Of a stretch of DNA of 32,017 bases, positions 4,969 through 26,463 are shown one piece after another. Location of the stretch: the NCBI GenBank assembly GCA_025458005.1, contig JALOTG010000005.1, forward strand, positions 1-32,017. Direction: 5' to 3'. Both the position numbers and the translations under genes were made by a program. Position 1 is the first letter of the stretch; the number at the start of each line of letters is the position of its first letter. Below the pieces are notes generated by a model. That model saw only the letters and a list, made by a program, of their open reading frames with translations. It was not told where the DNA came from and ran no database searches. Origin of the DNA: Thiobacillaceae bacterium (GTDB lineage: Bacteria; Pseudomonadota; Gammaproteobacteria; Burkholderiales; Thiobacillaceae).

Positions 4969-6402
4969 ATGCTGCTCGGCTTCGTCATCCTCTACCTGGT
5001 CATCTCCATCGGCATCGGCATGTACGCCGCCACCCGCGTGCACAACGCCCGCGACTACATCGCCGCCGGCCGCAGCCTGCCGATCTGGATCGTCATCGCC
5101 ATGGTGTTCGCCACCTGGTTCGGGGCGGAGACCGTGCTGGGCATCCCGGCCACCTTCCTGGAGGAGGACCTGGGCGGGCTGATCTCCGACCCGTTCGGCG
5201 CGTCGCTGTGCCTGGTCCTGTTCGGGCTGTTCTTCGCCCGCAAGCTCTACCGCATGAACCTGCTCACCATCGCCGACTTCTACCGCGAGCGCTACGACCG
5301 GCGCGTCGAGGTGATCACCGGCATCGCCATCGCCCTGTCCTACCTGGGCTGGGTGTCGGCCCAGATCACCGCCCTGGGGCTGGTGTTCAACGTCCTCTCC
5401 GACGGCGAGATCACCCAGGCCCAGGGCATCCTGATCGGCGCCAGCGTCGTCCTGATGTATACCCTCTACGGCGGCATGTGGTCGGTGGCCCTGACCACCT
5501 TCTTCCAGATGATCATCATCGTTGTCGGTCTTTTTTACATCGCCTGGCTGATCGCCGACCAGGCCGGCGGGGTGGCCCCGGTGGTCGCCCACGCCGCCGC
5601 GAACGCCAAGTTCGAGTTCTGGCCCCAGCTGGAGGCGGTGGCCCTGATCGCCTTCATCTCCGGGCTCCTCACCATGGGCTTCGGCTCCATCCCGCAGCAG
5701 GACGTGTTCCAGCGCGCCAACTCGGCGAAGAACGAGAACGTGGCGGTGTGGGGCACGGTGCTGGGCGGGGTGGCCTACTTCCTGTTCGCCGCCGTGCCGC
5801 TGTACATGGCCTATTCGGCGCACCTCATCGACCCCGCCCTGGTCGCCCGCTGGATCGGCGTGGACGCGCAGAAGATCCTGCCCGAGCTGATCAAGGGCGA
5901 CTTCCCCCTCGCCGCCCAGGTCATCTTCTACGGCGCGCTGCTGGCGGTGATCATGTCCACCGCCTCGGGCACCCTGCTGGCCCCCTCGGTGACCATTTCG
6001 GAGAACGTGCTGAAGGGCTTCGTCACCCGGCGCAAGCACCTCTCGGACAGGAAGCTGCTGGCCATGACGCGCTGGGTGGTGGCCGTCTTCGCCGTGCTGG
6101 TGACCGTCTATTCCCTGTGGTCCCTGGACCGGGAGACCACCATCCACCAGATGGTGGAGAACGCCTACAAGGTCACCCTGGTGCTGGCCTTCGTGCCCCT
6201 GGTGGCGGGACTCTACTGGCGGCGGGCCACCACCCGCGGCGCCTACCTGGCCATCGCCTGCGGCCTCGCCACCTGGCTGGGCATGGAATGGCTGGCGCCG
6301 GAAGGCGAGGGCCTCCTGCCGCCGCAGTTCGCCGGCTTCCTGGCGGCCATCGTCGGCATGCTCATCGGCGCTCTCTCCGACGGGCGCAAGCGCGCCTCCT
6401 GA
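4969..6402 (+). CDS. Sodium:solute symporter (SSS) family protein
   Basis: 477-aa multi-TM protein; RDYIAAGRSLPIWIVIAMVFATWFGAETVLG and SGTLLAPSVTISENVLKG are SSS-like. Confidence 0.9.
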   Translation: MLLGFVILYLVISIGIGMYAATRVHNARDYIAAGRSLPIWIVIAMVFATWFGAETVLGIPATFLEEDLGGLISDPFGASLCLVLFGLFFARKLYRMNLLTIADFYRERYDRRVEVITGIAIALSYLGWVSAQITALGLVFNVLSDGEITQAQGILIGASVVLMYTLYGGMWSVALTTFFQMIIIVVGLFYIAWLIADQAGGVAPVVAHAAANAKFEFWPQLEAVALIAFISGLLTMGFGSIPQQDVFQRANSAKNENVAVWGTVLGGVAYFLFAAVPLYMAYSAHLIDPALVARWIGVDAQKILPELIKGDFPLAAQVIFYGALLAVIMSTASGTLLAPSVTISENVLKGFVTRRKHLSDRKLLAMTRWVVAVFAVLVTVYSLWSLDRETTIHQMVENAYKVTLVLAFVPLVAGLYWRRATTRGAYLAIACGLATWLGMEWLAPEGEGLLPPQFAGFLAAIVGMLIGALSDGRKRAS

Positions 6403-6459
6403 CCGGCCCGGTCTGCCGCGGGCGGCTGCGCCCACCCCCCGCCGGCCATGACGCTCCCC

Positions 6460-6488
6460 GGCCGGTCGGCGCATCGAGCCGATCGGCC
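6460..6488 (+). terminator. Possible hairpin downstream of the SSS gene
   Basis: GGCCGGTCGGC (6460-6470) / loop / GCCGATCGGCC (6478-6488), 11 bp with one G:U; only a short T run follows. Confidence 0.3.
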
Positions 6489-6516
6489 TTGATGTCCCTC
6501 ATCATCGTCATCCTGT

Positions 6517-6575
6517 TTGTCGGTTTTATTTACGTCTTTTCGCGAAAATTGTCGGATCGCTTTACAAATTTTCGC
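6517..6575 (+). promoter_or_regulatory. Tandem upstream activator-like repeats for the PEP-CTERM gene
   Basis: Two copies of TTGTCGG-N6-TTAC-N3-TTTTCGC at 6517-6543 and 6549-6575 (32-bp period) with a perfect palindrome TTTTCGCGAAAA at 6537-6548. Confidence 0.65.
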
Positions 6576-6631
6576 TTCCCCCCTGCCCGGCCCAGAAAGC
6601 AAGTCATTGAATAATCATGTAATTCATCGAG

Positions 6632-6647
6632 TGGCATGAGGGTTGCT
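6632..6647 (+). promoter_or_regulatory. Sigma-54 (RpoN) -24/-12 promoter
   Basis: TGGCATGAGGGTTGCT against consensus TGGCACGN4TTGCW: one mismatch, correct GG-GC spacing; 35 bp upstream of the start codon. Confidence 0.75.
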
Positions 6648-6682
6648 AATGACTGTGCACCCTCATGACGCAAGGATAATCC

Positions 6683-7672
6683 ATGAAACCGAATCTTCTC
6701 TCCCTGGCCTCCGCCGCCCTCCTGGCCCTCGGCACGACCAGCGCCGCCCAGGCCAGCGTGATCGCCTCCTGGACCACGCCGCCGAACGCCTCCAGCTACC
6801 TGGTGGGCACCAAGGTCACGCCCACCGGCAACGCCAACGCCAGTGGCGTGGTCGGCGGCACCGGCCTGGACCTGGCCCTGGTCCTCGACTCCTCCGGCAG
6901 CATGACCACCAGCAACAGCGGCAAGACCCGCCAGGTGTGGCAGCGCGAGGCGGCCATCGCCCTGGTCAATGCCCTGCCCCAGCTGACCACCTCGGTGGCG
7001 GTGGTGGAGTTCGACAGCGACGCCAACCTGGTGCGCCAACTGACCGCCCTGACCCCCGACAAGAACCTGGTCGAAAGCGCCATCAACAGCGTGGATGCCT
7101 CGGGCAGCACCAACATCGGCGCCGGCATCGACCGCGCCCGCACCGAGCTGCTCGGCGCGAACGGCACCGCCGGCCGCGCCCAGGTGATGGTGGTGATCTC
7201 CGACGGCGCGAGTTCCGGCACGCCCGCCAGCAACGCCGCCGCCGCCGTGACCGCCGGCGTGGACGCCATCCACACCGTGGGCATCCCGGGCCACAGCGCC
7301 GCCACCATGCAAGCCATCGCCACCTCGGGCAACGGCACCTACACCAACGGCACCGACGTGACCACGCTGGCCGGCCTGTTCAGCGGCACGGCAGGCAACC
7401 TGGTGGGCATCGACTACGTGGACATCCTGATGGCCGACGGCACCCTGATCAACGACATCGCCATCGACGGCCTGGGCAACTTCACCCTGCCGGAGTTCTC
7501 GATCCGGCTGGGCGACAACATCTTCACCGCCACCGCCTACGACACCGCCGGCAACTCGGCGTCGGCCCAGTTGCGCCTGATCGGGATCCAGCAGAACGTC
7601 CCCGAGCCCGCCACCCTGGCCCTGCTGGGCCTGGGTCTGGCCGGATTGGGCCTGATGCGCCGCAAGGCCTGA
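6683..7672 (+). CDS. VWA domain-containing PEP-CTERM sorting protein (predicted secreted)
   Basis: N-terminal signal peptide; MIDAS-like DLALVLDSSGSM; C-terminal VPEPATLALLGLGLAGLGLMRRKA; RBS AAGGA upstream of the ATG. Confidence 0.93.
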   Translation: MKPNLLSLASAALLALGTTSAAQASVIASWTTPPNASSYLVGTKVTPTGNANASGVVGGTGLDLALVLDSSGSMTTSNSGKTRQVWQREAAIALVNALPQLTTSVAVVEFDSDANLVRQLTALTPDKNLVESAINSVDASGSTNIGAGIDRARTELLGANGTAGRAQVMVVISDGASSGTPASNAAAAVTAGVDAIHTVGIPGHSAATMQAIATSGNGTYTNGTDVTTLAGLFSGTAGNLVGIDYVDILMADGTLINDIAIDGLGNFTLPEFSIRLGDNIFTATAYDTAGNSASAQLRLIGIQQNVPEPATLALLGLGLAGLGLMRRKA

Positions 7673-7709: not shown

Positions 7710-7751
7710 AATGTAAAAAGGCCCGACAAGTTTGTCGGGCCTTTTTACATT
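7710..7751. terminator. Bidirectional intrinsic terminator between convergent PEP-CTERM gene and rsfS
   Basis: AATGTAAAAAGGCCCGACAA (7710-7729) and exact reverse complement at 7732-7751; A-tract/T-tract on both sides. Confidence 0.95.
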
Positions 7752-7762
7752 TTGCGCCTCGC

Positions 7763-8107
7763 TCAGGCCGCCGCACGCTCCCGCGCCACCGCGCCCCAGA
7801 GCTCCTCCAGGTTGTAGTGGCTGCGCGCCGCCGGGTGCATGACGTGGATCACCACGTCCCCGGCGTCGACCAGGATCCACTCCGCCGCCCGCTCCCCCTC
7901 GGTGCCGATGATGGCGGCGCCGGCCTCCTTGAGCTTCTCCTCGACGTGGTCGGCCAGGGCCTTGACCTGGCGGGTTGAGTCGCCGCTGGCGATGACCAGG
8001 GTGTCGAACAGGGAGGTGAGCGGGCGCACGTCCAGCACGGTGATCTCCTTGCCCTTGATGTCTTCCAGGGCGGCGACGGCGACGCGGGTGAGGGCTTCGG
8101 TATCCAT
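7763..8107 (-). CDS. rsfS: Ribosome silencing factor RsfS
   Basis: 114 aa; ALEDIKGKEITVLDVRPLTSLFDTLVIASGDSTRQVKALADHV and WILVDAGDVVIHVMHPAARSHYNLEELW are RsfS hallmarks. Confidence 0.95.
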   Translation of the reverse strand: MDTEALTRVAVAALEDIKGKEITVLDVRPLTSLFDTLVIASGDSTRQVKALADHVEEKLKEAGAAIIGTEGERAAEWILVDAGDVVIHVMHPAARSHYNLEELWGAVARERAAA

Positions 8108-16494: not shown

Positions 16495-19400
16495 CTATCC
16501 CGCCGCCACGACCTCCCCGGTGAGCCTGGCGATCTCGCCCAGCAGCGCCTCGTCCTGATAGGGCTTGCCCATGTAGGCGTTGACGCCCAGATCCAGGGCG
16601 TGCTGGTGGTGCTTCTCCGCCGTGCGCGAGGTGATCATGATGATCGGCAGGTCACGCAGGCGAGCGTCGGCGCGCACCGCCCGGGTCACCTCGAAACCGT
16701 CCATGCGCGGCATCTCGATGTCCAGCAGCATCACCGCCGGGATCTCGTCCTGCATGAATTCCAGGGCCTCCACCCCGTCCTTGGCGGTGGCCACGCGGTA
16801 GCCCTCGCGTTCGAGCAGGCGGCTGGTGATCTTGCGCACGGTGAGGGAGTCGTCCACCACCAGGACCAGGCGCGATTGTTCCTCCGCCGCCTGGATCTCT
16901 TCCTCCGGCAGCGGCTGGACCGGGGCGCGCTCGGCCAGGGCGAAGGGGTTGAGGATCAGGGCGATGCGCCCGTCGCCGAGGACGGTGGCGCCGACGATGC
17001 CGGCGATGCGCGCCACCTGGGCCCCGGTGTTCTTGATCACCGCCTCGTAGTTGCCCTCCATGGCGTCCACGCGCAGGGCCAGGCGCTCGTCGCCGGCGCG
17101 CAGCAGCAGGAGGGTGCGGAAGCGGCCCTCGGCCGGCTGGGGGCGGCAGTCCGTCAGTTCGGCCAGGCTGCGCAGGGGGTAGCGTTCGTCCTCGAAGACC
17201 ATCTGCCCGGCCTCGTGCAGGGCATTCAGCTCCTCGACGCGGACCTCGCGCACCAGCGCCACCAGGTTGGCGGGCAGGGCGTAGGTCTGGCCGCCGGCCC
17301 GCGCCAGCACGACGGGGGCGACGGCCAGGGTGAGGGGCAGGCGGATGGTGAAGCGGGTGCCGAGCCCGGCCTCGGTCTCCATGCGCACGCGGCCGCCGAT
17401 GCCGGCGATCTCGTTCTTCACCACGTCCAGGCCGATGCCGCGGCCCGCCACCTCGGTGACCCGCTGGGCGGTGGAGAAGCCGGGCGTGAACAGGAAGGAC
17501 TCCAGGCGCTCGGTGGAGATCACCTCGCCCGCGCCGACCCAGCCGAGGGCCTCGGCCCGGGCGCGCACCGCTTCCAGGTTGACGCCGGCGCCGTCGTCGG
17601 CGACGGTGATGAGGATCTCGTTGCCCTCCTGGCGGATGGCCAGGTGGATCTCGCCGTATTCCGGCTTGCCCGCCGCGCGCCGCTCGTCTGGCGGCTCCAT
17701 GCCGTGGGCCACGGCGTTGCGCAGCAGGTGCTCCAGGGGTGCCACCACGCGGTCCAGGACGGTGCGGTCCAGCTCCGTCTGGCCGCCGTCGATCTCCAGC
17801 TGCGCCTTGCGTTGCAGTTCCTTGGCCGCCTGGCGGACGACGCGGTGGAGGCGCTCGGCCAGGGAGTCGAACGGCACCATGCGCATGCGCATCAGCTCGT
17901 GCTGCAGGGAGCGGGTCATGCGCGATTGCAGGTGCAGCGTGCGGTCCGCCTCGTCGATGCCGGAGAGCAGGTTGTCCTGGGCGGTGGACACGTCGTTGAC
18001 GCTCTCCGCCAGCAGCCGGGTGAGCTCCTGCAGGCGGCTGTAGCGGTCGAACTCCAGTGGGTCGAAGTGGCTCTCGTCCATCTGCGACAGGCGGGTGCGC
18101 ATCTGGCTCTCGGCCTGGATCTCCAGTTCGCGCAGCTGGCTGCGCAGCCGTTCCACGTTGGCGGTCAGTTCCTGGGCGGTCTGCTTGTAGTTGTTGAGCA
18201 GGTTCTCCACCCGCGCCCGGGCGATGGCCACCTCGCCTGCCTCATTGAGCAGGGTGTCGAGGATGTTGGCCTTGAGCTTGAGGGTCTGGCGCAGGCGCAG
18301 GTCCTCCTCGGTCACTGCCGGGGCGGTCACCGGAACCGGCGGCGCGGCGAGCGTCTCGGGCGGCGCGGCGGCCAGCGGCTCGGTGGCCGCCGGGGCGGCT
18401 TCGGGGGGCGTGGACAGGGCCTCCACCATCTCCGCGAGGGTGTCGTATTCGGCCTCCAGCCCATCGAGGAATTCCGCCTGGGGGGCGCCATCGCCCTGCT
18501 CCAGCAGGCGGGCTTCCAGGATGTGGGTGCGCTCGCCGAGGCGCATGGCGCCGGCCATGCGCGCGCTGCCCTTGAGGGTGTGCAGGGCGCGTTGCAGGGC
18601 CTGCCGCGCCGTCGCGTCGCCGGGTTCCGAACGCCATTGGCGCAGATTGGTGCCGATGCGGGGCAACAATTCCGCCGCCTCGTCCAGGAAGATGGGCAGC
18701 AGTTGCGGGTCCAGGTCGTCCTCGGGGAGGGCACGGGGGGCGGCCTGGGCGGCAGCCTCCGGCTCGGGCTGCGTCGGCTGATCGGCTGTAGCCGGCTGCT
18801 CGGGCAGGTCCGGGCGGACCTCGGTCCGGGCGGCGACCGTGGGCGCGGGCACGGGGGGGGCGGCTTCGATTTCGGCGGCGGGGGCCATGACCTGCGCTTC
18901 CGCGGCCGGCTCCGCGTCCGGTGGCGGGGCGAGGGCGTCAAGACGCTCGGGGATCTCCGGGCTGCCGTCGGGCAGGCTGCCAGCCTCGATTTCCTGCAGC
19001 ATGCCGGCCAGTTGCGCCAGGATGTCCTGGAGGACGGAGACGGCGGCCCCGTCCAGGGGGCGGTCCTTCCCGGGCCAGGCGCCGGCCCACAGTTCCACGG
19101 CGTGCACGGCATCGGCCAGGGACTGGAAACCGGTGGTTCGCGAGATGCCGGCCAGGGTGTGGGCGGCGCGGATGAGGGCCTCCCAGGCGGCTGTGTCAGG
19201 CCCGTCGGCGACGCGTCCGAGGTTCTCGTGCAGTTCGCCCAGGCGCTGCAACGCCTCCTCGGCGAAGACGCGGTACAGGGCGACCGGCAGGCTGTGGCCG
19301 CCGATGTCCATCATCTCTTCCTCGCCGGCGGCCGCTGCGGACGTCGGCGCGCCGGCTTCAGACTTTGGGGGTGGCGAGGCCTCCGGCGTTCCGCCGCGCA

Positions 19401-21792
19401 GTGCCCGGGCGCGGGCAAGCAGGTCGCCGGCCTCGACCCGCGGCTGGCCGCCAGCCTCCAGGACCTGGACCCAGCCGCCGAAGGCGTCGGCGACCTTTTC
19501 CAGCCAGTCGAGCAGTTCCGGGGTGGGGGCCTTTTCCGCACGCAGCCAGTGGTTGAGGGTGTCCTCCACCTGCCAGGCCACCTCGGCCAGTTCGGTCAGC
19601 CCCACCATGCGCCCGCTGCCCTTCAGGGTATGGAAGCTGCGCCGGACCGAGGCGAAGGCATCATTGTCGAACGGGCTGACATTCAGGCGCGCCAGCTGGG
19701 CGACGATGTTGCCCAGCACGTCGTTGGCCTCCTCGATGTAGACGTTGAGCATCTCGGCGTCGATGGTCTCGTCCGTGGCGCCGGCCAGCTGGGCGGCCTC
19801 GGCGCTCGGCGCGGCCTGGGCGGCGCCGGCCGGCGCGCCGATCTGCTGCACGACCGAGCCGATGGCCTGGGCCGGGGCGTTCTCCTTGAGGGCCTGGATG
19901 GCCTGCTGGGCCTGTTCCTTGAGCTGGACGTTGCCGACCAGGTCAGCGTCGCGCGCCAGCTTGCTGAGGCCCTCGCCGAGGGCCTGGCGGTCGGCCTCGG
20001 TCGCCTCGCCGCCGGCCAGGCGGGCCGCCTCTTCCTGCAGGCGGGCCGTCTCGGCGCGGATTTCGGCCTCCACGCTGGCCTCGGGGGAGGGCAGGGACTC
20101 GCGGCGGGCGAGCAGGCCGGTCAGCTTCTGGGTGTCGTCGCGTCCATAACGCAGGGCCTCGACGTACAGGCCCAGGGTGGACAGGGCCTCGGCCACCCAA
20201 TCCAGCTCCTCGGCGCTGATCGGATAGTCCGGATCGGCGAAGCGGTCGATCCGCTCCAGGCTGGCGCGGGTGAGGTCCGCCGCCGTGCCGAGCTGCAGGA
20301 TGTTGAAGGCGCCCAGCACCTGCTTCATCAGGCCCGGCACCAGCGGCACGCGGCCGCGCTCGCTGGCGTCGCGGAAGAACTTGTCGAGGATTTCCTCGAC
20401 CTGGTTGAGGTTGGCCTGGATCTCCTGGGACACATGGGCGACGATGAGCCGCTCCTGGGCCTGGCGCGAGACCTCGTCGAGCATCGGCACGTCGGCGGGG
20501 ATGCGCGAGACGTCGTAGTTCGGGTCGATGGCCGCCTGCAGCCGCTGGGTCTGCACGTCCGCCTGGCGATCGAACTCCTGGCCCAGCGACTCGAAGTGAT
20601 CGATGGCGTTGTGGGTGAGCAGCATGGCGGTGGCCATCTCCAGCTGCAGGGCCTCGTTCTGGGCGGTGTCCGCCACACTGGACGAGCGCTTGGCCACCGC
20701 GTGCACCATGCGCAGCAGGGCCTTGAGGGAATCGTTGGGCAGCCGCACGGCGGCCTCGAACATCTCCAGGGCGGCGCTCTGGAAGGGCTCCAGGTTGTCC
20801 TGGCGTCCGCCGCAGTATTTCATCCAGGCATCCTTGGCCCGGTTCAGGGCCTCGCGCAGGGCGTTCAGGTGCGGCCGCCAGCTGGCCTCGGCGCCACCGG
20901 CCTCGGCGCCGATCCCGGCCGTCATGTAACGGTCGAGGTGGAAGATGCGCCGGGCATCCAGGGCCCGTCCGTCGATGCCCTTGTCCTGGGCCAGGTAATA
21001 GAGCACGTCGCGCAGCAGGCGCTCGGCGAGCTGCCGCGAGCCTTCGGCGAGGCGGCGCATCTGCAGGTCGATCCGGCCGCACAGCCGCTTGACCCAGAAA
21101 TCCACCGGCAGGGCGCCCCGGCGCAGCGACTCGAGCAACCCCGCCACCAGCCACCAGAAGGTGTACTGGGTGGCGCCGGGCGCCAGCCTCTCCAGTTCCC
21201 GCACCGCCTGGTCCATGTACATCAGGCCGACGGTCGCTTCCTTGTCCTGCAGGAACATCAGCAGGCCGCGCTGGTACTGGCCGCGGGCGCGGCGGATGGC
21301 CCGGTTGAGGGCCTCCTCGTCGAGGGGCGGGGCCTGGGGCGCGGTGCGGCCGACGCGCAGGGAGACGTCGGGGAAGAACAGCTCGCTCGGCGCCGGCGGC
21401 TCGGCGCCGCGCTGGGCGAGGACCCGGGCGTAGATGCCGGCGAGCTTGAGTTCGGCGTTCGGGGCGCCGCCCATCAATTCGTCCAGGTAGACGAGCAGGG
21501 CATCGATGGCGTCGATCGCCACCTCCGCGCTTTCCGGGCCGCGCCGTTCCGCCTCGTGGACCATCTCGGTGAGCAGCCGCTCGGCCTCGCCGCAGAGCAG
21601 GGACACCCCCTGCAGATCGACGATGGTCAGCGCGCCGGATACCTGGTGCAGGTGGGCCGCGGCCGCCTTGAGCGGGTTGGTGTCCTCGCCGTTCCAGTCG
21701 GCGAGGGCCTGGCGGGCCGCCCCGAGGGCCTGGTCCACCTCCGCCTTGACCCAGGTCAGGGGCCCCAGATCGAAATCCATGTCCTCGCTCAT
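16495..21792 (-). CDS. chpA: Hybrid chemotaxis histidine kinase ChpA/PilL (Hpt repeats, CheA kinase, CheW, REC)
   Basis: 1765 aa; Hpt motifs HTLKGSGRMVG, HTLAGISRTTG and HTLKGSARMAG; kinase H-box region LEHLLRNAVAHGMEPPDER; C-terminal REC LVVDDSLTVRKITSRLLEREGYRV. Confidence 0.95.
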   Translation of the reverse strand: MSEDMDFDLGPLTWVKAEVDQALGAARQALADWNGEDTNPLKAAAAHLHQVSGALTIVDLQGVSLLCGEAERLLTEMVHEAERRGPESAEVAIDAIDALLVYLDELMGGAPNAELKLAGIYARVLAQRGAEPPAPSELFFPDVSLRVGRTAPQAPPLDEEALNRAIRRARGQYQRGLLMFLQDKEATVGLMYMDQAVRELERLAPGATQYTFWWLVAGLLESLRRGALPVDFWVKRLCGRIDLQMRRLAEGSRQLAERLLRDVLYYLAQDKGIDGRALDARRIFHLDRYMTAGIGAEAGGAEASWRPHLNALREALNRAKDAWMKYCGGRQDNLEPFQSAALEMFEAAVRLPNDSLKALLRMVHAVAKRSSSVADTAQNEALQLEMATAMLLTHNAIDHFESLGQEFDRQADVQTQRLQAAIDPNYDVSRIPADVPMLDEVSRQAQERLIVAHVSQEIQANLNQVEEILDKFFRDASERGRVPLVPGLMKQVLGAFNILQLGTAADLTRASLERIDRFADPDYPISAEELDWVAEALSTLGLYVEALRYGRDDTQKLTGLLARRESLPSPEASVEAEIRAETARLQEEAARLAGGEATEADRQALGEGLSKLARDADLVGNVQLKEQAQQAIQALKENAPAQAIGSVVQQIGAPAGAAQAAPSAEAAQLAGATDETIDAEMLNVYIEEANDVLGNIVAQLARLNVSPFDNDAFASVRRSFHTLKGSGRMVGLTELAEVAWQVEDTLNHWLRAEKAPTPELLDWLEKVADAFGGWVQVLEAGGQPRVEAGDLLARARALRGGTPEASPPPKSEAGAPTSAAAAGEEEMMDIGGHSLPVALYRVFAEEALQRLGELHENLGRVADGPDTAAWEALIRAAHTLAGISRTTGFQSLADAVHAVELWAGAWPGKDRPLDGAAVSVLQDILAQLAGMLQEIEAGSLPDGSPEIPERLDALAPPPDAEPAAEAQVMAPAAEIEAAPPVPAPTVAARTEVRPDLPEQPATADQPTQPEPEAAAQAAPRALPEDDLDPQLLPIFLDEAAELLPRIGTNLRQWRSEPGDATARQALQRALHTLKGSARMAGAMRLGERTHILEARLLEQGDGAPQAEFLDGLEAEYDTLAEMVEALSTPPEAAPAATEPLAAAPPETLAAPPVPVTAPAVTEEDLRLRQTLKLKANILDTLLNEAGEVAIARARVENLLNNYKQTAQELTANVERLRSQLRELEIQAESQMRTRLSQMDESHFDPLEFDRYSRLQELTRLLAESVNDVSTAQDNLLSGIDEADRTLHLQSRMTRSLQHELMRMRMVPFDSLAERLHRVVRQAAKELQRKAQLEIDGGQTELDRTVLDRVVAPLEHLLRNAVAHGMEPPDERRAAGKPEYGEIHLAIRQEGNEILITVADDGAGVNLEAVRARAEALGWVGAGEVISTERLESFLFTPGFSTAQRVTEVAGRGIGLDVVKNEIAGIGGRVRMETEAGLGTRFTIRLPLTLAVAPVVLARAGGQTYALPANLVALVREVRVEELNALHEAGQMVFEDERYPLRSLAELTDCRPQPAEGRFRTLLLLRAGDERLALRVDAMEGNYEAVIKNTGAQVARIAGIVGATVLGDGRIALILNPFALAERAPVQPLPEEEIQAAEEQSRLVLVVDDSLTVRKITSRLLEREGYRVATAKDGVEALEFMQDEIPAVMLLDIEMPRMDGFEVTRAVRADARLRDLPIIMITSRTAEKHHQHALDLGVNAYMGKPYQDEALLGEIARLTGEVVAAG

Positions 21793-21805
21793 CTTTTGCT
21801 GGCCC

Positions 21806-23893
21806 TCAGAGTTTGAAGCCTGCCACCGACACCTTGAGTTCCTCGGCCAGGGCGGTCAGTTCGTCCATGGACTGGGCGCTGCGCTTGGCACCGGTGGAGG
21901 CCTGCTGGGTATCGTTCAGGATCTGCTGCATGTTGGCGGTGATGTTCTCCGCGGTCCTGGCCTGGGCCTGGGTGGCCTGGGAGATGTTCTGGATCAGCCG
22001 GGCGAGCTGTTCGGACACCGTCTCGATCTCCTGCAGGGCGTGGCCCACGGCATCGGCCCGGGTGGCGCCCTCCACCACGCCCTGGGTGCTGATCTCCATG
22101 GCGTTCACCGCGTCCTGGGTGTCGCCCTGGATGGTCTTGACGATGGCGCCGATGCGCCGGGTGGCGGCGCCGGAACGCTCCGCCAGGCGCTGCACCTCCT
22201 CCGCCACCACCGTGAAGCCGCGCCCCGCCTCGCCGGCGGCGGCGGCCTGGATGGCGGCGTTGAGGGCCAGCACGTTGGTCTGCTCGGTGATGTCCGAGAT
22301 CAGCTCGACGATCTCGCTGATCTCCTGGGAGGATTCGCCCAGGCGCTTGATGCGCTTGGAGGTCTCCTGGATCTGGTCGCGCAGGCCATTCATGCCGGCG
22401 ATGCCCTCGCGCACCGAGTCGCCGCCACGCCGGGCGACGGCCAGCGAGTTCTCGGCCACCTGGCTGGACTCGGCGGCGTTGCGCGAGACCTCGACGATGG
22501 ACTGCGACATCTGGGTGATCGCCTCGCCGGTCAGGGTGATCTGGCGGGATTGCCGCTCCGCGGCGCCGAGCAGGTCGTCGGAGACCTCCTTGGCCTCGTT
22601 GGTGGCGTGGGTCAGCTGGTCGGTGGCGCGGTGGATGTTGTTGACCAGGGTGCGCAGCTCCTCGATGGCGAAGTTCACCGAGTCGGCGATGGCGCCGGTG
22701 ATGTCCTCGGTCACCGTGGCGCGCACCGTCAGGTCGCCCTCGGCCAGGTCGCCCATCTCGTTGAGCAGTTTGAGAATGGCGTCCTGGTTGCGCCGGTTCT
22801 CCCGCGCCGCCTCCTCGGCACGCCGACGCGCCTCGGCCACGTTCAGGCTGCCCAGCACGATCAGGCAGGCCAGCGCCACGATGCCGAACAGCAGCGCCAG
22901 GATCAGGGTGGCGCCGGCGCCCAGGCCTTCGTAGCGGGTCGTCAGCCGCTGGGTCATGGTCAGCAGCTTCTCGCTCTCGTCGAAGATCTCGCGCGCGGCG
23001 CGCTTGGCCTCCACCAGCAGCGGCATGTTCTTCAGGATGCCGTTGACCTGCTCCTCCAGGATGACGAAGACGTCATTGAGTTCGCGCAGTTTCTCCTGCG
23101 TCGCCCGATCGGACACCGGCAGCACCCCCAGGCTGGTGCTGCCCTTCAGCAGGGCGTCCAGCACCTCGCGGAAGGTGCGCACGTCCTGGCCGAGCTGGTA
23201 GGCGGTCTCCGGGTTGATGATGTCGGAGGAAACCAGGGCGTTGACGTTCTTGGCGATGCGCTGGGTCCACAGGGCCTGCTGGTTGGCGAAGGCGAGCTGC
23301 CGCTTGGAATCGGCCGGCAGCAGGGCGATGACCTGCTCGGTGAGGTCGAGCAGTTCGGTGTTGCGCGCGTTGATCTGGGCGAGGGCCTGGGAGAACTGGA
23401 TCAGCTGGGCCTGCTGGGAGTGCAGCGCCTCGATGTTCTTCCTGGAGACCTCCCAGCGCTTCTTCAGCTCCGCCAGGTCGGGCTGGATGGCGCCCGGCGA
23501 CGCGGGGACGCCGAGGCCCCCGTCGATCAGGGCGCCGAGGCCCTCGGCGAACTGCTTGCGGCTCTCCTCCAGCTGGGCGAAGGCGGTCTTGTTGCCGAGC
23601 ACGGCCTGCTGGGCGGTCTTCGAGTAGCGCTGCGACAGCATCTGCAGCTGGGTGGCGATTTCCACGTACTTGCCGCGGTTGCCCACCTGGTAGGTGTGCC
23701 AGACCGCCGCGCCGAGGCCCAGGATCAGGGCCACCAGCAGCGCCAGGGTGAGAGCTCCGGTGCGCTGGTCGGCGGGCAGCCGATTGACCAGCGGCAGCCG
23801 CTCCGGATCCAGCGTGGCCCAGCGGCCGAGCAACGCGGACAGCGCCTCGCCCCATCCCTTGCCGACCGATATCTTGGGCAGCTTCAACGCCAT
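21806..23893 (-). CDS. pilJ: Twitching motility methyl-accepting chemotaxis protein PilJ
   Basis: 695 aa; two TM regions, HAMP-like region, MCP signalling tip variant [32 protein letters not shown]; next to ChpA and PilI. Confidence 0.95.
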
Positions 23894-23969
23894 TGCTTGT
23901 TCTCCTCGGTATCCGTTATCGATCCGGCAGCCCGCGCGCGGTGCGCGAGGGCAGCTGCGTCATGCCCGC

Positions 23970-24479
23970 TCAGGCCCCGGCATCGAGGAAGGCGGCAGAG
24001 GCCACCAGCCTCTCCATGTCCAGTTCGATCCATTCCGTGCCGTCCGCGCCATGCCAGCGGCCCTTCCACCAGTCCGGGTCGTCCTCCTGGCGGGCCGCCT
24101 CGGACATCTCGGACAGGTTGCGCAGACCCAGCGCGCGTTCCATGCGCAACGCGGCATTGATGCCATATCGCGGATGCACCAGCAGCAGGCGGCTTTCCCC
24201 CGCGGGCATGACCTCGGACAGGCCGGCGAAGGCGGCCAGGTCGGTGCAGCCGTAGACCGTGCCGCGGATGCTGGCCAGGCCGGCGAACCAGGGCTTCGCC
24301 CAGGGCACCGGGCTGATCCCGGCCACCGTGACCACCTCGTTGATCTCGGCCAAGTCCGTCAGCCAGTGCCGCCCGCCCGCCTGGAAGCCCAGCTTGGAGG
24401 CGGGGTTCCGGCTCGACGCGGTGCGGAACCGCTCCGCCAGCTGGGCCTGAAAGTCGCGCAGGCTCTGCTTTTCGGCCAT
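23970..24479 (-). CDS. pilI: CheW-like adaptor PilI
   Basis: 169 aa; SPVPWAKPWFAGLASIRGTVYGCTDLAAFAGL; between pilJ and pilH. Confidence 0.9.
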   Translation of the reverse strand: MAEKQSLRDFQAQLAERFRTASSRNPASKLGFQAGGRHWLTDLAEINEVVTVAGISPVPWAKPWFAGLASIRGTVYGCTDLAAFAGLSEVMPAGESRLLLVHPRYGINAALRMERALGLRNLSEMSEAARQEDDPDWWKGRWHGADGTEWIELDMERLVASAAFLDAGA

Positions 24480-24494
24480 CGCTGCGATCCGGCC

Positions 24495-24860
24495 TCAGCT
24501 CAGGGCCTTGATCTTGGCGAGCAGATCGTCGGCGGCGATGGGTTTCACCAGGTATTCCGCCGCGCCCTGGCGCATGCCCCAGATGCGGTCGGTTTCCTGG
24601 TCCTTGGTGGTGCACATGATGACCGGGGTGTCCTTGGTGTCGGCGTCTCGGCTCAGCATGCGGGTGGCCTGGAAGCCGTTCAGTCCGGGCATGACCACGT
24701 CCATCAGGATCAGGTCGGGTCGGTCGCTCTTGGCCCGCGAGATGCCCTCCTCGCCGCTGTTGGCGGTGATCACGTCGTAGCCGTTCTTGCGCAGGATGTC
24801 GGTCAGGTAGTAGCGCTCGGTGGGGGAATCGTCCACCACCAGCACGGTGCGGATGGCCAT
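24495..24860 (-). CDS. pilH: Response regulator PilH
   Basis: 121-aa stand-alone REC; TVLVVDDSPTERYYLTDILRKNGYDVITA, phosphoacceptor LILMDVVMPGLNGFQATR. Confidence 0.92.
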   Translation of the reverse strand: MAIRTVLVVDDSPTERYYLTDILRKNGYDVITANSGEEGISRAKSDRPDLILMDVVMPGLNGFQATRMLSRDADTKDTPVIMCTTKDQETDRIWGMRQGAAEYLVKPIAADDLLAKIKALS

Positions 24861-24875
24861 GCGGGCGTCTCCTTG

Positions 24876-25265
24876 TCAGTTGGGCCGGTGCTGACGCACC
24901 GCGCTGAGCAGCGTGTCCTTGGTGAAGGGCTTGGTCAGGTATTCGTCGGAGCCCACCAGCCGGCCGCGCGCGCGGTCGAACAGGCCGTCCTTGCTCGACA
25001 GCATGATCACCGGGGTGGCGCGGTAGCGGGAATTCTTCTTGATCAGGGCGCAGGTCTGGTAGCCGTCGAGGCGGGGCATCATGATGTCGACGAACACCAC
25101 GTCGGGGTGATGGTCGGTGATCTTGGCCAGGGCGTCGAAGCCGTCCTCGGCCAGGATCACCTCGCAGCCCGCCTGCAGCAGGAAGATCTCCGCGCTGCGG
25201 CGGATGGTGTTGCTGTCGTCGATGACCATCACCTTCACGCCCTTCAGTTCCGGGGAGTTGTCCAC
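24876..25265 (-). CDS. pilG: Response regulator PilG
   Basis: 129-aa stand-alone REC; KVMVIDDSNTIRRSAEIFLLQAGCEVILAEDGFDALAKI, VFVDIMMPRLDGYQTCALIK. Confidence 0.93.
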   Translation of the reverse strand: MDNSPELKGVKVMVIDDSNTIRRSAEIFLLQAGCEVILAEDGFDALAKITDHHPDVVFVDIMMPRLDGYQTCALIKKNSRYRATPVIMLSSKDGLFDRARGRLVGSDEYLTKPFTKDTLLSAVRQHRPN

Positions 25266-25287: not shown

Positions 25288-26463
25288 TCATGCGCCGCGT
25301 TCGAGCGGGTAACCCGACGCCTTCCAGTCGGGAATGCCGGTGCGGAACCAGTAGACCTTGGTGTAGCCCCGCCTGACCATATAGCGGGAGGCCTTGTAGC
25401 TGTACCAGCACTCCGCGCCGTTGCACTGGAAGATCATCGGCGCGTTCTTGTCCTTGGGCAGTCGGGTGAGGTCGAAGCGGTCCAGCGTGTCGTCGGCGTC
25501 CGGCTCCTTGGGGCTGTTCAGCTCGTAGGTCACGTTGATCGCGCCGGGGATGTGCGCCTCCCGGTAGTGGCTCTTGGGACGCACGTCGTAGAGGGGGACG
25601 CCCTGGCCGATCAGGGTCTTGGCCTGGGCGGCGTTGATGAGGGTGGCGCCGGGCAGCACCTCGGGGGTGTAGAAGCCGCGCGTGGAGACGAACTCGAAGT
25701 CCTTGTCGCTGGCGGCCGCGAAGGAATCCAGCTTGACCCGCCGCAGCCGGGCCTCCATCTCCTGCCCGACCGAGATGAAGGCCTCGCGCACGCGCGCCCT
25801 CAGCGCCTCGTCCATCTTGTGGCTGACCGCCACGCCCGCCATGGGCACCTGATTGAACGCCTTGACCACCTTGGTGTCCTTGCGCTGGGCCGCCCATTCC
25901 CGGGCGACGCTCTCCTTCACCGCGGCCAGGTCGGCCTGGCCGATGTCCATGGCGTACATGACCGCGCCATACTGGTTCATGTGCATGACTCGGCCGAAGT
26001 AGCTGTCGGGGGTGGTGCCCAGGGCGTTGAGTTCGCCGCGCACCAGATAGCTCACCAGGGATTCCCGGTGCGGCATCGCCACCGGCTTGCCGCGCGCCTG
26101 CTCCAGGTTGGCGATGCGGGCGCCCGAGCGGGACACCAGCATCACCCGGGTGTTTTCCCGCGTCCTGGCCACCGGCGTGTAGCCGTGGCGCATGGCCAGG
26201 CCCACCATCTGGGCGGGGGCCAGCAGCAGGTCGTAGCTTTCGGTGCGGATGCGCTCGCCGACCCGCTCCGCGTTCTGGGTCATGACCAGCTTGACCGGCT
26301 GTCCCAGCCGCGTGCTCAGTTGTCTGGCCAGGTCGCTGAAGACGCTCTGGGTGGTGAAATGATCACGTTCCTGGTCGTAGTCCAGCGTGACGTTCAGGAT
26401 CAATTCGGCGCGCGCGCTGGCCATCACGGCCAGGGTCGCCAGCAACAAAGCCAAGCGTCGCAT
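25288..26463 (-). CDS. Periplasmic phosphonate-binding-like (PhnD/PBP2) domain fused to a C-terminal rhodanese domain
   Basis: Signal peptide MRRLALLLATLAVMASARA; N-half LARQLSTRLGQPVKLVMTQNAERVGERIRTESYDLLLAPAQ; C-half PLYDVRPKSHYREAHIPGAINV...MIFQCNGAECWYSYKASRYMVRRGYTKVYWFRTGIPDWKASGYPLE. Confidence 0.85.
   Translation of the reverse strand: MRRLALLLATLAVMASARAELILNVTLDYDQERDHFTTQSVFSDLARQLSTRLGQPVKLVMTQNAERVGERIRTESYDLLLAPAQMVGLAMRHGYTPVARTRENTRVMLVSRSGARIANLEQARGKPVAMPHRESLVSYLVRGELNALGTTPDSYFGRVMHMNQYGAVMYAMDIGQADLAAVKESVAREWAAQRKDTKVVKAFNQVPMAGVAVSHKMDEALRARVREAFISVGQEMEARLRRVKLDSFAAASDKDFEFVSTRGFYTPEVLPGATLINAAQAKTLIGQGVPLYDVRPKSHYREAHIPGAINVTYELNSPKEPDADDTLDRFDLTRLPKDKNAPMIFQCNGAECWYSYKASRYMVRRGYTKVYWFRTGIPDWKASGYPLERGA

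Follow-up and report, generated by a model that had tools for sequence, protein, structure and literature searches.

The DNA analysed here, referred to as the window, is a 32,017-nt stretch from a Thiobacillaceae bacterium that makes up the whole of contig C262 in a 90% complete draft genome (3.19 Mb in 329 contigs). The gene of interest, at 6683-7672, encodes a protein with an apparent signal peptide in its translation, a VWA domain (PF00092, 68.9 bits) and a C-terminal PEP-CTERM sorting signal (TIGR02595, 27.6 bits vs a cut-off of 16, with PF07589 also above cut-off), in agreement with the initial annotation, made from the sequence alone, which had named it a PEP-CTERM VWA protein. As the neighbouring genes are a sodium:solute symporter gene upstream (4969-6402) and the minus-strand rsfS downstream (7763-8107), the 280-bp gap at 6403-6682 serves the PEP-CTERM gene alone. 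The features of the locus are as follows.

6518-6534, plus strand: distal motif 1, TGTCGGTTTTATTTACG, 1 mismatch to TGTCGG-N5-TTTACA, gap to the -24 box of 98 nt
6537-6548, no strand: palindrome TTTTCGCGAAAA, noted in the initial annotation, probably incidental
6550-6566, plus strand: proximal motif 1, TGTCGGATCGCTTTACA, 0 mismatches to TGTCGG-N5-TTTACA, gap to the -24 box of 66 nt
6600-6612, minus strand: IHF-like site CAAGTCATTGAAT, which differs at 1 position from the reverse complement of WATCARNNNNTTR, in the enhancer-promoter spacer
6632-6647, plus strand: sigma-54 -24/-12 promoter TGGCATG-N4-TTGCT, TGGCATGAGGGTTGCT
6672-6676, plus strand: ribosome-binding site AAGGA, read from the sequence
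6683-7672, plus strand: target gene, encoding a 329-aa secreted VWA protein with a C-terminal PEP-CTERM sorting signal (profiles and translation)
7710-7751, no strand: hairpin with a perfect 19-bp stem, likely a bidirectional terminator, between the target gene and the convergent rsfS

The -24/-12 box proposed earlier is the only exact match to TGGCA-N6-TTGCW in the window, where versions with one or two mismatches are no commoner than chance expectation. Transcription is predicted to start near 6658, and the AAGGA and the ATG at 6683 lie exactly where the initial annotation placed them. Its description of the region as AT-rich in a GC-rich window is also accurate, with 45% GC in 6500-6682 vs 69% in the window. 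Upstream of the box it reported two copies of TTGTCGG-N6-TTAC-N3-TTTTCGC, which are borne out to the base: the copies, at 6517-6543 and 6549-6575, are offset by 32 bp and display 0 mismatches, remain the sole 27-bp matches in the whole window when up to three mismatches are allowed, and have no counterpart in 100 shuffles of the window.

Judged by their letters, both repeats are copies of a published element, motif 1 (TGTCGG-N5-TTTACR) of Haft et al. 2006 (PMC1569441). That study described a 17-nt motif ending TTTACA, sometimes repeated, that occurs upstream of proteobacterial PEP-CTERM genes and is separated from a sigma-54 box (motif 2) by a spacer of 62.8 ± 10.6 nt. The arrangement preceded 99 of 167 proteobacterial PEP-CTERM genes, and PrsR was proposed as the activator, with PrsK/PrsR/PrsT as partners. 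The criteria used were a spacer of 32-92 nt from the 3'-most motif 1, a -24(GG)/-12(GC) box and a start codon 23-221 nt further on; in the window the proximal 17-mer ends 65 nt before TGGCA, and 35 nt separate the box from the ATG. The interpretation given in the initial annotation is thus largely right, yet already published. The locus resembles the Haft system in its repeated motif 1, spacer, sigma-54 box, downstream PEP-CTERM gene and prsK/prsR in the genome, but differs in the tightness of its repeat, a tandem with an offset of 32 bp. Across the sites compared here, moreover, the spacer proves to be quantised in steps of ∼11 bp. The Haft paper contains no mention of IHF or helical phasing.

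TGTCGG-N5-TTTACA has the form of an imperfect 6-5-6 dyad, as is usual for sites bound by dimers of Fis-type regulators of the NtrC family. The two copies are candidate PrsR-dimer sites with predicted centres near -132 (6518-6534) and -100 (6550-6566). The repeat unit delineated earlier was only partly correct: its core is the real element, while the TTTTCGC tail, considered as part of the binding site, is common to these two copies only and is not conserved in 83 related sites. As columns 3' of TTTACA, and outside the 17 nt generally, carry almost no information in those sites, the 27-bp unit is a local resemblance. Similarly, the palindrome TTTTCGCGAAAA is present at 6537-6548 but was rejected as an operator, being one of 14 perfect 12-bp palindromes in the window and unconserved in the 83 related sites. 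A further exact motif 1, TGTCGGTCTTTTTTACA, occurs at 5523-5539 within the sodium:solute symporter gene (VGLFY codons) and is presumably a chance match.

Related promoters were identified with a composite pattern, TGTCG-N6-TTTAC-N48-78-TGGCA-N6-TTGCW, with the reversed pattern as control. Of the 349 genomes examined from the order (Burkholderiales), 45 contained the composite and none the reversed control, and a phylum sample added 6 sites outside the order. The first gene was strictly PEP-CTERM at 54 of 83 distinct composite sites; at least 9 more preceded genes with related tails, for example of VPLPA or EPA types, as judged by eye. At six loci (L163, L174, L175, L210, L211 and L212) motif 1 and sigma-54 boxes are found ahead of genes whose C-terminal tails are of VPLPA/VPVPA type, so that the regulon seems to include proteins with further sorting signals of exosortase type.

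The TTTAC-to-TGGCA gap was measured in 107 motif-1/sigma-54 pairs from ∼350 genomes of the order and the phylum sample; as fixed consensus patterns were used for genome sites, the resulting histogram describes strong sites. The 83 sites from the N48-78 search comprised 19 with gaps of 51-56, 51 with 62-67, 12 with 74-78 and a single site at 59. A further search, covering gaps of 79-109, yielded 24 more sites, at 84-89, 96-101 and 106/109 (control 0). The gaps therefore occur almost only in clusters ∼11 bp apart (51-56, 62-67, 74-78, 84-89 and 96-101; n=107). Their periodicity has a resultant length R of 0.75 at a period of 11.3-11.4 bp (a broad peak), and when gaps were shifted by up to 5 bp in 20,000 trials R never exceeded 0.36. 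As read from these sites, motif 1 is helically phased against the sigma-54 promoter, a rule that is new here, and this suggests that the activator site must face one particular side of the helix with respect to the promoter. Both gaps in the window fit: the proximal gap of 66 lies in the main cluster, 62-67, and is consistent with the published spacer, and the distal gap of 98 falls within a populated phased cluster.

The close tandem is unusual, not typical. Two motif-1 starts within 46 bp of each other were found in this genome alone (1 of 349), which disposes of the tandem as a widespread arrangement; no second close motif 1 was found at 82 other related promoters, and other secondary copies lie 125-176 bp upstream. 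At four loci in this genome (L191, L079, L078 and L114, on contigs C285, C209, C192 and C7, respectively) the first motif 1 is preceded, ∼134-148 bp upstream, by another; such extra copies are possible distal enhancers, and on C209 and C192 they have no sigma-54 box of their own visible in range. The rarity of the tandem raises the possibility that the promoter, while sigma-54 dependent, has proximal motif 1 as its sole working enhancer and that the copy at 6518 is a chance match or a decaying, functionless duplicate, a view in keeping with the final G of the distal copy, where most sites have A. We regard this as the less probable alternative, albeit one that deserves serious weight. Between the two copies every core base is kept, whereas 12 of ∼13 positions outside the core and TTTTCGC differ, and the retention of the core while the rest changed favours, in this single case, a function for the distal copy. 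Its gap of 98 is, moreover, an allowed phased position, and elsewhere enhancers at gap 98 are the sole predicted site, as at C54:3726 in this genome.

A putative double enhancer at the locus, in which both dyads are in helical register (32 bp apart) and both in phase with the promoter, has a parallel in the NtrC enhancer of glnA (glnAp2), where two tandem activator sites also lie upstream of a sigma-54 promoter. At glnAp2 the NtrC sites are dyads of 17 bp (TGCACC-N5-GGTGCA) with their centres at -108 and -140 and thus 32 bp apart, the same separation as between the window centres at ∼-100 and ∼-132, although one review places the glnA sites ∼90 and 140 bp upstream. The systems differ in half-site sequence, and outside this locus most PrsR sites occur singly. 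Helical phasing has been judged less relevant at glnA, while face-of-helix dependence was shown for NtrC at nifLA.

The regulators that the initial annotation implied are all present in the genome, above profile cut-offs. A prsR gene (744.7 bits vs a cut-off of 502.6) adjoins prsK (799 bits vs 300) on C292, and rpoN is single copy at C16:3693-5072 (451 bits vs 277). The gene preceding prsK-prsR reads as polyprenyl sugar transferase-like, which would reproduce the epsB2-prsK-prsR order of Aquincola. In Aquincola tertiaricarbonis RN12 (PMC9850573) pepA transcription is RpoN1-dependent, and its start and -24/-12 box have been mapped. The window resembles RN12 pepA in combining a PEP-CTERM gene, a -24/-12 box and a predicted upstream enhancer with this gene order elsewhere in the genome, but here the start and RpoN dependence are predictions, and the target protein has a VWA domain. 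Together with Zoogloea, in which a PEP-CTERM gene is regulated by RpoN and PrsK-PrsR, this literature agrees with the mode of control stated in the initial annotation. The genome contains 51 PEP-CTERM domains; motif 1 (up to two mismatches) occurs upstream of 19 of the 51 genes, 15 of which also have a sigma-54-like box in range. The expected enrichment upstream of other PEP-CTERM genes is thus seen in this genome and recurs across the order. As the other 32 genes have no motif 1 upstream at this threshold, other regulators, or operon promoters further upstream, must exist.

An NtrC-family regulator other than PrsR could bind the repeats, with PrsR merely correlated. The genome encodes at least 9 further proteins that match the receiver-AAA-Fis profile, and the open-access literature yielded no data on PrsR-DNA contact, the motif having been a computational prediction since 2006. 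All of these further proteins, however, score below the profile's cut-off, whereas exactly one PrsR, with GAFTGA and a Fis-type C-terminus, and one PrsK exceed theirs; the phylogenetic profile of motif 1 matches that of prsR (Haft et al. 2006, PMC1569441); and in Zoogloea PrsK-PrsR are needed for PEP-CTERM gene expression. A different regulator is therefore improbable, and PrsR remains the favoured activator.

The 11-bp periodicity might alternatively reflect the shared ancestry of a handful of promoters that acquired 11-bp insertions, rather than helical constraint, as the sites come from related genomes and their counts are not independent. When one site per family was retained (25 families), however, mean R was still 0.70, vs 0.52 for the 99.9% null. 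Furthermore, the 21 relaxed-motif composites within this one genome, mostly before unrelated genes, are all in or next to clusters (including gaps of 42, 89, 98 and 109), and the same holds for all 6 sites outside the order. Descent is improbable, and helical constraint is the preferred explanation. That the entire arrangement arose by chance in AT-rich DNA between genes can be dismissed, for while sigma-54-like boxes with one or two mismatches are frequent by chance, the absence of the repeat from shuffles and of the reversed composite from the genomes, the phased spacing and the PEP-CTERM gene directly downstream already refute it statistically.

Between enhancer and promoter lies an IHF-like site that the initial annotation overlooked. 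It is at -32 from the T of TGGCA, in a promoter of gap class 64. Exact WATCARNNNNTTR occurs in 19 of 83 spacers, compared with 1.2 in dinucleotide shuffles, and with up to one mismatch in 57 of 83, compared with 15.8. The sites cluster at two promoter-fixed places, in reverse orientation from ∼-32 and forward at ∼-19, which together account for 46 of 83 spacers vs 2.1 ± 1.4 in local shuffles. Promoters of the 53 and 64 classes show this fixed-place enrichment strongly, those of the longer gap classes weakly; in the latter a few forward IHF-like sites lie near -30. Because IHF bends DNA to one side of its core sequence, the two placements may each bring the bend to near -20. IHF has an established role in helping sigma-54 promoters to loop, and a site between enhancer and -24/-12 box, here predicted to be bound by IHF at 6600-6612, is reminiscent of NifA/IHF-type promoters, although in this system the strongest enrichment is confined to the two shorter spacing classes.

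These data support the earlier reading of a PrsR-like enhancer with a sigma-54 promoter, which is consistent with the presence of prsR, prsK and rpoN, the 51 PEP-CTERM domains and the recurring composite. The region is very probably an enhancer-dependent sigma-54 promoter of the PEP-CTERM regulon, activated by PrsR at motif 1 with looping aided by IHF or a bend. For this locus we infer PrsR binding, phosphorylation, looping and a surface role. In the proposed mechanism the sensor kinase PrsK would phosphorylate PrsR, whose receiver, AAA+ domain with GAFTGA and Fis-type helix-turn-helix would enable dimers to bind motif 1 (TGTCGG-N5-TTTACR). With two dimers spaced 32 bp apart and facing almost the same side of the DNA, the AAA+ ring should assemble more readily, which may give a stronger or more sensitive promoter. 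IHF, or an intrinsic bend of the AT-rich 6600-6612, would then fold the DNA such that PrsR touches sigma-54 RNA polymerase at 6632-6647, and ATP hydrolysis would open the promoter, so that the gene of the VWA PEP-CTERM surface protein is transcribed from a start near 6658. It is likely, though less firmly so, that a general PrsR grammar operates across proteobacteria, in which motif 1 is placed only at steps of about one turn (∼53, 64, 75, 86 and 98 nt), a promoter-fixed IHF-type bend is present in the short classes, and two of the positions are used here as a double enhancer. The phased spacing constitutes strong natural evidence for motif 1 as an enhancer that loops onto sigma-54 polymerase, and supplies an exact spacing rule for finding members of the regulon, which matters for floc formation in activated sludge.

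PEP-CTERM surface proteins of relatives are linked to clumping and floc formation, and the target may, by analogy with PepA of Zoogloea and Aquincola, have a role in cell aggregation. Phylogenetic footprinting of the target gene was abandoned, as 60 relatives contained no close orthologue (matches were to the PEP tail or VWA domain only) and the nearest homologue, from Alteromonadaceae Bs31 (50% identity), lacks the promoter, having upstream only motif-1-like sites with two mismatches and no sigma-54 box.

The hairpin at 7710-7751 (fold -33.2 kcal/mol, z = -7.3) has two arms that both spell motif 1 exactly. It was rejected as a regulon feature, being unique among 349 genomes, with varied terminators at other PEP-CTERM genes here; motif 1 in the arms is possibly a coincidence, and PrsR might bind there. 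One arm also spells motif 1 exactly in a comparable hairpin after PEP-CTERM gene C116:20795-20866. Elsewhere in the window, the minus strand of 16495-25265 carries a Pil/Chp-type chemotaxis cluster, which includes a 1765-aa CheA-like kinase with Hpt, HATPase, CheW and receiver domains, a PilJ-like transducer and two single-domain response regulators. The stretch 25288-26463 encodes a periplasmic phosphonate-type binding domain fused to a C-terminal rhodanese domain, an unusual pairing.
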